This document shows positions 15,224-36,818 of a stretch of 64,000 nucleotides of DNA, one piece after another (position 1 is the first letter of the stretch; each line of letters starts with the position of its first letter). A model generated the notes under the pieces. That model had not been told where the DNA came from. It was given only the letters and a program-made list of their open reading frames with translations, and did not search any database. The stretch comes from Cyanobium sp. PCC 7001 (lineage in GTDB: Bacteria; Cyanobacteriota; Cyanobacteriia; PCC-6307; Cyanobiaceae). The DNA lies in NCBI RefSeq assembly GCF_000155635.1, contig NZ_DS990556.1, positions 1,109,051 to 1,173,050 of the forward strand. Direction: 5' to 3'. A program made the position numbers and the translations under genes.

Positions 15224-16381
15224 GTGAGCCAGACCCCTTCGCCAACGAGCGCGCCAGGCGGTGAGCGCCAGGCGCTGCGCCTGCTCCTCGTGGCGACACG
15301 CCAGCAGCTGGCCGGGCAGGATCTGCGCACCCTGCTGCAGTTGCTCAAACGGGACGACCTGGGCTTCGAGGTGACCCTGGAAGTGGCCGATCCGCGCCGC
15401 CAGCCGGAGCTGCTGGAGCTGCACCGGCTGCTGGCGACCCCGGCCCTGGTGAAACTCGCCCCCGCTCCCAAGCAGGTGTTCGCCGGCAGCCCGATCAGCC
15501 AGCGGCTGCAGAACTGGTTGCCGCGCTGGCAGCAGCTTGCCGTGGTGAACGACCTGGGGATCCAGGCCGAGACCATCGACATGGAGGCCCACCACTCCAG
15601 GCGCGAGCTGCAGCTGGAGGACCAGCTGCTGGTGCTGCGGCAGGAGAACGAAGCCCTGATCGAGCGGATCGGGGTGCAGGAACGGCTGCTGCGCATGGTG
15701 GCCCACGAGCTGCGTACGCCGCTCACCGCCGCCAAGCTGGCCCTCCAGAGTCACCGGCTCGGGCAGATCGACGAGCGCCGCTACCAGGAGGTGGTGGGGC
15801 GCCGCCTCGATGACATCGAAGAGCTCTCCAAGGACCTCCTGGAGGTGGGCACCACCCGCTGGGAGGCCCTGTTCAATCCCAAGCGGCTCAGCCTCGGCAA
15901 GCTGGCCGCCGAGGCGATCCTCGAACTCGAGAAACTCTGGGTGGGCCGCTCGCTGCGGCTGATCACCGACATCCCCGCCGACCTGCCGGACGTGTACGGC
16001 GACGAGCGGCGGCTGCGTCAGGTGCTGCTCAACCTGCTGGAGAACGCCTTCAAGTACACCCCCGAGAGGGGAGAGGTGACGCTCACCCTGCTGCACCGCA
16101 CCGACCAGTGGGTGCAGCTCAGCGTGGGGGACAGCGGTCCCGGGATACCGGCGGAGCAGCAGCAGCGGATCTTCCTGGAGCGGGTGCGTCTGCCCCAGAC
16201 AGCCGACACCACCTCGGGCTACGGGGTGGGGCTCTCCGTGTGCCGCCGGATTGCCGAGGTGCATGGCGGGCGCATCTGGGTGGTGTCCGAACCGGGCGAG
16301 GGGGCCTGCTTTCATGTGACCGTGCCGGTGTGGAGCGGCCAGGGCCAGTCCGCCTTGACGAAGGGTCACCCTGGCCCGTAG
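15224..16381 (+). CDS. sasA: Circadian clock output histidine kinase SasA
   Basis: The 385-residue protein has an N-terminal KaiB-like thioredoxin-fold domain (about residues 15-105, LRLLLVATRQQLAG and LVKLAPAPKQVFAGSP). A coiled linker leads to the dimerisation domain, with phospho-acceptor His161 in RMVAHELRTPL. The ATPase domain has N-box LLNLLENAFKYTP, SVGDSGPGIP and GVGLSVCRR. SasA binds KaiC and phosphorylates RpaA to time global transcription. A GTG start gives the usual length. The tRNA-Glu gene follows 61 bases after the stop. Confidence 0.95.
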   Translation: MSQTPSPTSAPGGERQALRLLLVATRQQLAGQDLRTLLQLLKRDDLGFEVTLEVADPRRQPELLELHRLLATPALVKLAPAPKQVFAGSPISQRLQNWLPRWQQLAVVNDLGIQAETIDMEAHHSRRELQLEDQLLVLRQENEALIERIGVQERLLRMVAHELRTPLTAAKLALQSHRLGQIDERRYQEVVGRRLDDIEELSKDLLEVGTTRWEALFNPKRLSLGKLAAEAILELEKLWVGRSLRLITDIPADLPDVYGDERRLRQVLLNLLENAFKYTPERGEVTLTLLHRTDQWVQLSVGDSGPGIPAEQQQRIFLERVRLPQTADTTSGYGVGLSVCRRIAEVHGGRIWVVSEPGEGACFHVTVPVWSGQGQSALTKGHPGP

Positions 16382-16442
16382 TTTCCTCCCATCAGCACAA
16401 AGGCTCAGAAACCAGTTCTGACGCCCCTCCTGCTGTGGCCTC

Positions 16443-16515
16443 GCCCCCATCGTCTAGAGGCCTAGGACACCTCCCTTTCACGGAGGCGACAGGGGTTCGA
16501 ATCCCCTTGGGGGTA
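16443..16515 (+). tRNA. trnE: tRNA-Glu (UUC anticodon)
   Basis: The 73-nt gene folds as a cloverleaf. Acceptor arms GCCCCCA and TGGGGGT pair with one G-U at the end. The anticodon stem is CCTCC/GGAGG around loop CTTTCAC, giving anticodon TTC. The T arm is AGGGGTTCGAATCCCCT, with the conserved GTTCGAAT loop. No CCA is encoded. In cyanobacteria this tRNA also supplies glutamate for tetrapyrrole synthesis. Confidence 0.97.
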
Positions 16516-16520
16516 TGCAG

Positions 16521-16556
16521 AACGGTGCGCCTGAAGACCTGCTCAGGCGAGCCGTT
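16521..16556 (+). terminator. Hairpin just downstream of tRNA-Glu
   Basis: AACGGTGCGCCTGA (16521-16534) pairs with TCAGGCGAGCCGTT (16543-16556), leaving one 2x2 internal mismatch and an 8-base loop. It starts 6 bases after the tRNA end. There is no T-run after it, so it could be a processing signal or a weak terminator rather than a classical intrinsic terminator. Confidence 0.45.
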
Positions 16557-16857
16557 CAGGATCTGTGTACGACGTCTGAAAACCTGTTGCATGCATCGTT
16601 CAACACCCGTTGTTCTTGCCGATCCGATGCAGATTTGTCGCGTCCCGGACGTAGGGCTCGGGAAGCAGAGCTGAAGTTGTGAAAGAGAGGTTTGGTGCAG
16701 GGTCGCGGACTGTCTCGACCGGGGAATAGCACCACCGGGGATTAGCCCGACTGGGGAATAGCTCGACCGGGGAGTCGCTCAACGGGTTCCGTTGCCACAG
16801 CCATGGCGGCCCATGGCGTTTCCGGCGGGATCCAAGGGTGACGCCGAAGAGGCGCAG
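16557..16857. other. Gene-free stretch between tRNA-Glu and the SRPBCC gene
   Basis: Together with the hairpin this is the only gap above 300 bases in the window. Short open frames exist on both strands but none resembles a protein and they cross a 16-bp tandem repeat (16715-16790). Base composition in the left half is more AT-rich than the surroundings. No tRNA, promoter pair or insertion element was recognised in it. Confidence 0.6.
16715..16790. repeat. 16-bp tandem repeat, four copies plus a partial fifth
   Basis: The consensus TCGACCGGGGAATAGC is seen at 16715 and, with 2 to 3 changes each, at 16731, 16747 and 16763. A degenerate partial copy TCAACGGGTTCC follows at 16779. Copies are contiguous with no spacer. 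The unit length is not a multiple of three, which argues against a coding repeat. Confidence 0.85.
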
Positions 16858-17376
16858 TCAGGCCAGGCCGGCCCGCCGCATCGCCTCCATCTGCACGCCG
16901 CGCAGATTGTTGGCCAGATCGGTACGCAGACGCTGCTCGATCAGTCCGATCGGCATCCCGGGACGCCCCTGCACGATCAGCTCATAGAGCAGGATGCTCA
17001 CCCCGGCGTCCTGGCCGATCCGCCACACCCCCTCGAAGCGGCGGAAATCACCGCGGTTCATCGCGAAACGGAGTTCGCCGGCCTCCCGGTCCTCCACCAG
17101 TTCCAGTTCCACGGTGGCGGTGAAGCGCATGCCGCAGAACTGCTGGGTGCCCACCTGCTCGAGGCAGACGCGGTTGCCGCGGCGCCAGAGCTGCCGCGAG
17201 CTGGCCAGGTTCGGGATGAAGCGGCTGAGGTTGGGGTAGTCGGTGAGCACACCCCAGATCCAGTCGGGCTCCAGGGCCAGGCGCAACTGCACCGCCAGGC
17301 GCCGGGCCCCCTGCTCGAGGCGCTCCATCTCCTGCTGGATGGTGTCGAGACTGCAACTGCCGGGGAGCGCGGTCAT
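16858..17376 (-). CDS. SRPBCC (START-like, coenzyme Q-binding type) family protein
   Basis: The 172-residue protein (from the ATG at 17376) has the fold signature of polyketide cyclase/COQ10-like SRPBCC proteins: LALEPDWIWGVLTDYPNLSRFIPNLASSRQL, followed by strands such as FTATVELELVEDREAGELRFAM and a C-terminal helix (IEQRLRTDLANNLRGVQMEAM). Such domains bind hydrophobic ligands. The frame continues upstream through a proline/serine-rich stretch with a GTG at 17502 and on into the petH leader, so the start is uncertain. It is divergent from petH. Confidence 0.8.
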   Translation of the reverse strand: MTALPGSCSLDTIQQEMERLEQGARRLAVQLRLALEPDWIWGVLTDYPNLSRFIPNLASSRQLWRRGNRVCLEQVGTQQFCGMRFTATVELELVEDREAGELRFAMNRGDFRRFEGVWRIGQDAGVSILLYELIVQGRPGMPIGLIEQRLRTDLANNLRGVQMEAMRRAGLA

Positions 17377-17389
17377 CGGCACGGGCTGA

Positions 17390-18763
<1,374 letters not shown>

Positions 18764-18949: not shown

Positions 18950-20473
18950 ATGGCCGCCGTTCTCACCAACCCGTTGCGGGTGGGTCTCCGCCAGGAACGG
19001 GTGATCCCGCCGCAGATCATCGTGATCTTCGGCGCCAGTGGAGACCTCACCCATCGCAAGCTGGTGCCGGCCCTGTTCGAGCTGTACCGCCAGCGGCGCC
19101 TACCCAGCGAGTTCGCCGTGCTGGGGTGTGCCCGGCGGCCCTGGAGCGACGAGGAATTCCGTTCCCGCATGGCCGCTTCCCTGGCCGACGCGATCGCCGC
19201 CGATCCCCAGGCCTGGGAGCAGTTCGCGGCCGGGCTGTTCTACGAGCCCGCCGACCTCTCCAATCCGGCCACGATCGTGCAGCTGGGCGAGCGGCTCGAT
19301 GCCATCGACCGGGCCCGCGCCACGCGGGGCAACCGCACCTTCTATCTCTCGGTGTCGCCCGCCTTCTACGGCAGCGGCACCCGCGCCCTGGCCGCGGCCG
19401 GCCTGCTCAGCGACCCGGACCGCAGCCGGGTGGTGATCGAGAAGCCCTTCGGCACCGACTACGCCAGCGCCCAGGATCTGAACCGGGTGGTGCTGGGCTG
19501 CGCCAAGGAGAAGCAGATCTTCCGGATCGACCACTACCTGGGCAAGGAAACGGTCCAGAACATCCTGGTGCTCCGCTTCGCCAACACCATCTTCGAGCCG
19601 ATCTGGAACCGCAACTACATCGCCAACGTGCAGATCACAGCGGCCGAGACGGTGGGCGTGGAGGAGCGTGCCGGCTACTACGAAACCTCCGGTGCCCTGC
19701 GGGACATGGTGCAGAACCACCTCACCCAGATGCTCGCTCTCACCACCATGGAACCCCCCGGCCGCTTCGACGCCGAGGCGATCCGCAACGAGAAGGCCAA
19801 GGTGCTGCAGGCCGCCCAGCTGGCCAACCCCGGTGAACCCTGGAAGTGCTGCGTGCGGGGGCAGTACGGCCCCGGCGGCAGCCGCAGCAGTCCGATCGCC
19901 GGGTACCGGGAGGAGCCGGGGGTGGACCCGAACAGCACCACGGAGACCTACGTGGCCATGAAGCTGTTCATCAACAACTGGCGCTGGCAGGGGGTGCCGT
20001 TCTACCTGCGCACCGGCAAGCGCCTGCCCAAGCGGCTGTCGGAGGTGGTGCTCACCTTCCGGGAGGCGCCGGTGCACCTGTTCGACGCCGCGGCCGGCGC
20101 CCCCACGCCCAACCAGCTGATCCTGCGCATCCAGCCCGATGAGGGGGCGGAGATCAAGTTCGAGGTGAAGGCCCCCGGTTCCGGCATGCGCAGCCGCCCG
20201 GTGGACATGGCCTTCAGCTACGACGACTCCTTCGGCGAACCGAGCGACGAGGGCTACGTGCGGCTGCTGGCCGACGCCATGCTGGGGGAACCCACCCTCT
20301 ACACCCGCAGCGACGAAGTGGAAGCGGCCTGGAGGCTCTACACCCCGCTGCTGGAGGTGCTGGAGGAATCGCCCTGGCAGCTGCCGGTGCATCCCTACGA
20401 GGCCCGCACCTGGGGCCCGGCCGCCGCCGACAACCTGCTGGCCGACGACGACCTGGTCTGGCGTCGGCCCTGA
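18950..20473 (+). CDS. zwf: Glucose-6-phosphate 1-dehydrogenase
   Basis: The 507-residue enzyme catalyses the first step of the oxidative pentose phosphate pathway, making 6-phosphogluconolactone and NADPH. The dinucleotide-binding motif is FGASGDLTHRKL (residues about 27-38), and the substrate/catalytic motif RIDHYLGKE begins near residue 195. The length is normal. It is followed 50 bases later by opcA, whose product activates this enzyme in cyanobacteria, so the two probably form one operon for dark NADPH supply. Confidence 0.97.
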   Translation: MAAVLTNPLRVGLRQERVIPPQIIVIFGASGDLTHRKLVPALFELYRQRRLPSEFAVLGCARRPWSDEEFRSRMAASLADAIAADPQAWEQFAAGLFYEPADLSNPATIVQLGERLDAIDRARATRGNRTFYLSVSPAFYGSGTRALAAAGLLSDPDRSRVVIEKPFGTDYASAQDLNRVVLGCAKEKQIFRIDHYLGKETVQNILVLRFANTIFEPIWNRNYIANVQITAAETVGVEERAGYYETSGALRDMVQNHLTQMLALTTMEPPGRFDAEAIRNEKAKVLQAAQLANPGEPWKCCVRGQYGPGGSRSSPIAGYREEPGVDPNSTTETYVAMKLFINNWRWQGVPFYLRTGKRLPKRLSEVVLTFREAPVHLFDAAAGAPTPNQLILRIQPDEGAEIKFEVKAPGSGMRSRPVDMAFSYDDSFGEPSDEGYVRLLADAMLGEPTLYTRSDEVEAAWRLYTPLLEVLEESPWQLPVHPYEARTWGPAAADNLLADDDLVWRRP

Positions 20474-23370: not shown

Positions 23371-23621
23371 TCGTGGAGGGCAGGGTGCAGGGGGTGGGCT
23401 ACCGGGCCGCCTGCTGCGCCCGCGCCCAGGATCTCGGCCTGGGCGGCTGGGTGCGCAACCTCCCCGACGGCCGGGTGGAGCTGGAGGCCGAGGGCGGCAG
23501 CCAGCAGCTCAATGACCTGCGGCTCTGGTGTGAGATCGGCCCTCCCCACGCCGAGGTGCGCTGCGTGAGCACCCTGCCCGTGGGCACCACGGGAGAGGAC
23601 TGGTTCGAGGTGCGCCGCTGA
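23247..23621 (+). CDS. acyP: Acylphosphatase
   Basis: The domain VEGRVQGVGYRAACCARAQ through GGWVRNLPDGRVELEAEG is the acylphosphatase signature, with catalytic Arg in GYR and Asn in VRN. It hydrolyses acyl phosphates. The family is about 90 residues, but the frame extends about 35 to 50 residues upstream inside cbiA: ATG codons exist at 23196 and 23247 and none closer to the domain. The shorter one is given; either way the gene overlaps cbiA by more than 120 bases in another frame. The stop overlaps the next start (TGATG). Confidence 0.85.
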   Translation: MPADSTPAGRRSRERRSGTGQRRDVSAGAAGSRAPVERWRLIVEGRVQGVGYRAACCARAQDLGLGGWVRNLPDGRVELEAEGGSQQLNDLRLWCEIGPPHAEVRCVSTLPVGTTGEDWFEVRR

Positions 23622-25827: not shown

Positions 25828-27377
<1,550 letters not shown>

Positions 27378-36449: not shown

Positions 36450-36818
36450 CTAGGAGCGGCGCGGCCAGACCCAGCGCACATCGCGGCGGAGCTCGCCAGC
36501 GAAACGGGATCCTTCGGCCAGCAGGGCGCTGTGTTCGGCGGGGGTGAGCACCAGGGCATCGCAGCTGAGAGGCAACCGCTCCAGCGGCCAGAGCAGCAAC
36601 CGCTCCTGCTGGGAACCGCTGGCGTGGGCGTCGATCAGCAGCAGATCCAGGTCACTGCCCACGCCGGCCTGGCCACGGCCGTAGCTGCCGAACACCGCCA
36701 CCCGCTCCAGCGAAGGAACACGGGCCGCCTGCTCGGCCGCCCAGGTTTCCACCTGGCGCAGAACCTGGTGGGGCTCAGGCCAGCGCAGCACGGATTGCGT
36801 CAACGAGCGCACGGGCAT
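36450..36818 (-). CDS. MNT-type nucleotidyltransferase antitoxin
   Basis: The 122-residue protein has the minimal nucleotidyltransferase motif FGSYGRG (residues 43-49) followed by SDLDLLL with the metal-binding aspartates at 56 and 58. In HEPN/MNT systems the MNT protein neutralises the HEPN toxin, in studied cases by AMP transfer to it. The ATG at 36818 overlaps the end of the HEPN gene by 44 bases, which indicates translational coupling. The frame is open upstream antisense to nothing real. Confidence 0.88.
   Translation of the reverse strand: MPVRSLTQSVLRWPEPHQVLRQVETWAAEQAARVPSLERVAVFGSYGRGQAGVGSDLDLLLIDAHASGSQQERLLLWPLERLPLSCDALVLTPAEHSALLAEGSRFAGELRRDVRWVWPRRS

Follow-up and report, generated by a model that had tools for sequence, protein, structure and literature searches.

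The 16-bp tandem array downstream of tRNA-Glu in Cyanobium sp. PCC 7001 is very probably a non-coding minisatellite without sequence-specific function, generated by tandem duplication and slippage and only one of many in its genus. It was studied within a 64,000-nucleotide stretch of this genome (hereafter the window), where it lies in a convergent gap into which both tRNA-Glu (+) and a SRPBCC gene (−) end. The array and the features around it are as follows.

15224..16381, + strand: SasA-type histidine kinase gene (KaiB-like domain, HisKA and HATPase_c), the upstream neighbor; NCBIfam NF006800, 505 bits against a cut-off of 342, and Pfam KaiB, HisKA and HATPase_c
16443..16515, + strand: tRNA-Glu, anticodon TTC; ARAGORN, and Rfam RF00005 at 60.2 bits
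16520..16557, + strand: strong hairpin directly 3' of tRNA-Glu; fold of the first 45 nt of the gap
16714..16786, no strand: 16-bp tandem array, four imperfect copies at 16714-16777 and the start of a fifth; TRF, repeat finder and shuffles
16858..17502, − strand: SRPBCC gene (polyketide cyclase / dehydrase and lipid transport), the convergent neighbor; Pfam PF03364 at 59.7 bits, ORF list and gene caller; start approximate, the longest ORF extending to 17586
17540..18763, + strand: petH-like ferredoxin-NADP reductase gene; NCBIfam NF045929 at 591.3 bits, slightly below the cut-off of 600
18950..20473, + strand: zwf, glucose-6-phosphate dehydrogenase; TIGR00871, 614.4 bits against a cut-off of 400.6

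The name SasA is one that we presume for the kinase from its domain architecture. A simple gene caller finds no larger gap in the window than that at 16382-16857, which measures 476 bp with the tRNA counted in. An earlier note on this DNA, made from the letters alone, had called it the only large one, which holds for its rank but not for its being alone, as three further large gaps lie at 26389-26738 (350 bp), 23371-23620 (250 bp) and 36548-36774 (227 bp).

The array is real and far beyond shuffle expectation. Its self-match score is 25.5; when the 342-bp gap was shuffled 2,000 times with dinucleotides preserved, the scores averaged 7.0 (sd 1.1) and went no higher than 14.0. TRF reports it at 16714-16773 with period 16, 3.8 copies and 79% matches, and the repeat finder places the copies at start-to-start spacings of 16, 16 and 16. 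Copies 1 to 4 read CTCGACCGGGGAATAG, CACCACCGGGGATTAG, CCCGACTGGGGAATAG and CTCGACCGGGGAGTCG, followed by the beginning of a fifth; they differ from the consensus at 0, 3, 2 and 2 of 16 positions, and GGGG with the following A forms a conserved core. The fifth register has 9 mismatches in 16 and keeps only its start. The earlier note had thus found a true 16-bp array downstream of tRNA-Glu(TTC), yet the copies are not pure as it had described them, and its limits of 16715-16790 move to 16714 and about 16786. With a period of 16, no in-frame repeat can be encoded, and the array is non-coding.

The array begins about 200 bp past tRNA-Glu on the same strand, beyond the hairpin, and could on these grounds belong to a repeat-rich small RNA or to a processed 3' trailer of the tRNA-Glu transcript. 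We regard this as very unlikely. A structured RNA is recognized by a match to a curated family or by folding better than shuffles, and the array shows neither: folding of the two strands gave z values of +0.84 and +0.50, and in an Rfam scan of 16300-17600 only the tRNA exceeded its cut-off. Moreover, the array is not conserved, and the hairpin probably separates it from the tRNA. A folding energy of −24.9 kcal/mol (z = −4.32) was obtained for the first 45 nt of the gap, and the hairpin, which is followed by no T run, probably ends or trims the tRNA-Glu transcript; scans of 16300-17000 detected neither a sigma-70-like promoter nor a consensus terminator. Hairpins with z ≤ −2 stand directly after tRNA-Glu in 5 of 12 genomes of the genus, despite differing sequence.

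The 16-bp unit is private to this locus. The Cyanobium sp. PCC 7001 genome comprises 2,834,252 bases in two contigs, and the gap sequence is present in it once. Allowing up to 3 mismatches, the unit pattern has 69 forward and 63 reverse matches in the genome, as against 64 and 86 for a reversed control; the only clustered near-exact matches are the array itself, and the genome holds no second array of this unit. When the whole gap was searched against 60 genomes (its own included), only short matches at chance level were found besides itself, and the best 20 matches listed from a plasmid collection cover only the tRNA part (query positions about 39-125). Elsewhere in the same genome, a gap of 876 bp (L118:9249-9869) carries three different arrays with periods of 18, 13 and 16. 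Because tRNA genes are common integration sites, the array might be part of a mobile-element relic, such as a MITE, a REP-like sequence or the end of an element integrated at the tRNA 3' end, but we consider this extremely unlikely. MITEs and REP sequences occur as dispersed copies with inverted repeats, whereas the gap is single-copy, the repeat finder detected in it no inverted repeats with a 9-bp seed, and the gene order across it is kept in the genus.

While gene order is kept across the gap, its sequence is not. We found the SRPBCC gene in 12 of the 13 genus genomes searched, the exception (G008) being a genome 77% complete, and tRNA-Glu adjoins it in all 12. G002, the nearest relative located (91% protein identity), has no alignable array in the gap. 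At the orthologous gap, 8 of the 12 genus genomes have arrays that no more than one of 200 shuffles matched or outscored, with periods of 14 to 18. For a wider comparison, 76 orthologous loci, with 64 named family loci added, yielded 68 proteins and 66 gaps, of which 58 remained after the removal of 8 same-genome duplicates; an array-bearing gap whose protein was not recognized (L055) and a second piece of genome G003 (L047) are outside this set. With an array defined by a score of at least 11 reached by no more than 1 of 200 shuffles, and gaps shorter than 40 bp scored as array-free, 12 of the 58 distinct genomes bear an array at this gap, some of them with two copies only (×1.6-2.0). Their units are unrelated and their periods range from 14 to 23, and the fewest array-state changes on the protein tree number 8. 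Arrays turn over at this position. Array-bearing gaps make up 10/20 in the tree group that holds the genus of the window, 1/32 in a second group and 1/6 in a third (P = 0.0001 for the first against the second, Fisher's exact test, on a tree whose root and some branches are unsure). In Synechococcus sp. CS-1325 (L100), from a lineage outside the array-rich group, about six copies of a 15-bp unit occupy the orthologous gap after tRNA-Glu.

At this gap the sister genomes G011 and G012 differ in two other arrays, in one of them by whole units. Their flanking regions align, and where one of the genomes has four units of the first array the other has only two, so that they differ there by exactly 32 bp (two 16-bp units). 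The second array, whose unit is likewise 16 bp, occurs in one of the two genomes and is all but missing from the other; here the difference is 29 bp. Both are fragmented metagenome-assembled genomes, in which repeats can be misassembled.

To place the array among others, we sampled 864 kb of the Cyanobium sp. PCC 7001 genome (G000, the window included) and 400 kb each from three genomes of the same genus (G002, G006 and G007), one of the same family (G021) and one of the same class (G053). Genes were called with a simple codon-usage caller, and tandem arrays scoring at least 14 were counted in the gaps, a run of N in one stretch (L138) being excluded. The four genus genomes have 71 arrays in 206 kb of intergenic DNA (24 in 84,067 bases in G000, 17 in 33,014 in G002, 11 in 45,569 in G006 and 19 in 43,537 in G007), as against 3 in total from three shuffles per gap. 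Outside the genus, 1 array was found in 32,057 intergenic bases in G021 and 8 in 68,043 in G053. The genus exceeds each of them in array density (P = 0.00075 and P = 0.0016, respectively), with arrays treated as independent and one genome compared each time. Of the true arrays in the samples, the one with the highest score lies between two genes of G002 (L171:17763-17862) and repeats a 14-bp unit about seven times; it is a promising locus for differences in copy number among strains.

These arrays have no common motif, for the units share no words beyond those of shuffles (mean longest shared word 7.46 versus 7.35, sd 0.20), nor do they prefer promoter gaps, with densities per 100 kb of 34.9 in divergent, 34.6 in codirectional and 33.3 in convergent gaps. 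Both observations bear on the idea that the array is bound by a protein, as an operator, a nucleoid-protein site or a partition-type site with four phased copies. Its four evenly spaced intergenic copies, their conserved core and a unit of 16 bp, close to one and a half helical turns, would suit such binding. Nevertheless, we judge it unlikely. Besides the lack of a shared motif and of a gap preference in the class, the array sits between two 3' ends and is thus not an evident promoter element of either gene, no sigma-70-like site was detected in 16300-17000, and the unit is not reused in the genome. Units of iterons and operators are conserved in relatives, while this one is missing from the closest relative and from the other orthologous gaps. 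The absence of a shared motif and of a promoter-gap preference, together with the lack of the array in the closest relative, favors neutral tandem duplication and slippage instead.

We next asked whether the genus has a preferred unit size. Periods of 12-18 account for 50 of its 71 intergenic arrays. The mode at period 14 was rejected as a sign of size preference, since the score threshold requires a period of at least 14 for a perfect two-copy array. An equal criterion was therefore applied to all distances, counting the gaps that hold an exact 8-mer repeated at a given distance among the 941 gaps of the four genus genomes. Only distances that are not multiples of three were compared, because intergenic stretches miscalled by the simple caller add multiples of three. 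Repeats at distances of 13, 14, 16 and 17 occur in 82 of the 941 gaps, as against 47 at 7, 8, 10 and 11 (P = 0.0026), 41 at 19, 20, 22 and 23 (P = 0.00028) and 30 at 25, 26, 28 and 29 (P = 9×10−7), where one gap may count in several bands. All four genomes have their maximum in the 13-17 band. The other two do not, the bands in the same order being 1, 3, 2 and 2 of 168 gaps in G021 and 10, 19, 11 and 6 of 226 in G053. In coding arrays of the genus, almost every period is a multiple of three, and the commonest are 12 (44 arrays) and 15 (48 arrays). The coding and intergenic patterns would both fit one mutational process that is filtered by the reading frame inside genes; alternatively, selection for repeats at the protein level could have shaped the coding peak.

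The lineage-wide excess of arrays and the size preference are moderately supported and make a modest lead. Given the 82 of 941 gaps against 47, 41 and 30, and the 10/20 against 1/32 orthologous gaps, one picocyanobacterial lineage may possess a trait of replication or repair by which tandem duplications, preferably about 12-18 bp long, arise and enter intergenic DNA and, as multiples of three, proteins, a proposal that we put forward tentatively. Since simple slippage alone would not favor units of 12-18 bp above those of 7-11 bp, the account lacks some additional cause, which might in general terms be that flaps or slipped strands are handled imperfectly during replication. Among five repair and polymerase families in the six sampled genomes, no clear cause was detected. 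Loss of the exonuclease VII large subunit, of RecJ or of the 5' nuclease domain of DNA polymerase I was rejected, as all three are present in 6/6. A Y-family polymerase occurs in 5/6 and is missing in G053. SbcD exceeds its family cut-off in 5/6, and the exception is G021, the genome with the fewest arrays; this coincidence is a single-genome lead with no expected direction.

The favored origin of the array by duplication and slippage can be put as a series of steps. In the DNA that separates tRNA-Glu from the convergent SRPBCC gene, taken to be free of constraint, a 16-bp stretch would have been duplicated in tandem; whole units may then have been gained or lost by slippage between copies during replication, and point mutations would have made the copies diverge. 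Within the genus, fresh tandem duplications of some 12-18 bp may keep arising at any site where selection permits, of any length in intergenic DNA and in multiples of three in genes. Slippage as the mechanism, and neutrality, we infer from the pattern.

Among the three options that the earlier note had offered, a slippage product is thus the supported one, while a protein-binding array is weakened by a unit neither reused nor kept in the nearest relative and by equal densities across gap types, and a repeat-rich RNA by the folding of both strands. The genome-wide search for similar arrays that it had proposed found no second one in the genome. What it had correctly spotted, and slightly over-described, is an ordinary intergenic minisatellite. 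The array itself is of little consequence, being an ordinary product of tandem duplication, although it could be a marker for strain typing. If one lineage does make duplications of a preferred size, the origin of short tandem duplications could be put to the test by comparing its repair and replication proteins with their counterparts in relatives that have few arrays. A lineage trait of this kind, if true, would also give a steady supply of in-frame protein insertions.

Two known families of cyanobacterial repeats, which we take to be defined as heptamers (STRR) and 37-bp repeats (LTRR), resemble the array in being tandem and intergenic. They have fixed lengths and sequences shared at many loci, whereas the unit here is 16 bp and unique to its locus, in agreement with the earlier view that it is neither a heptamer nor a 37-bp repeat. 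Nor does it have the 7- or 37-bp unit shared across many loci that would place it in either family.

Published surveys give some background. Synechococcus sp. CS-601 has 197 tandem repeats of up to 30 bp (PMC6337551); in the portion of that paper considered here, this is a count only, with no unit-size preference, comparison with relatives or turnover at a locus. In prokaryotes, intergenic DNA mostly has an excess of close direct repeats (pairs of 10-mers within 50 nt), and mismatch repair is weak on loops of more than 1-3 bases (PMC4060949). The portion of that survey considered here names no lineage with a preferred tandem unit of 12-18 bp, and its exact tandem units extend up to 11 bp only. 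By titles and the beginnings of abstracts, we recognized in the full-text literature no report of a preference for 12-18-bp tandem units in Cyanobium-like picocyanobacteria. The closest likeness is to bacterial minisatellites, or VNTR loci. Such loci consist of head-to-tail units of about 10-60 bp beyond chance, and the array has period 16 and a score of 25.5 against a shuffle maximum of 14.0; its copies are short, imperfect, head-to-tail and non-coding, with a unit specific to the locus. The whole-unit copy differences at the same gap that mark VNTR loci are seen between the sister genomes G011 and G012 in other arrays. Bacterial minisatellites are already known, and the array is a further example of them.
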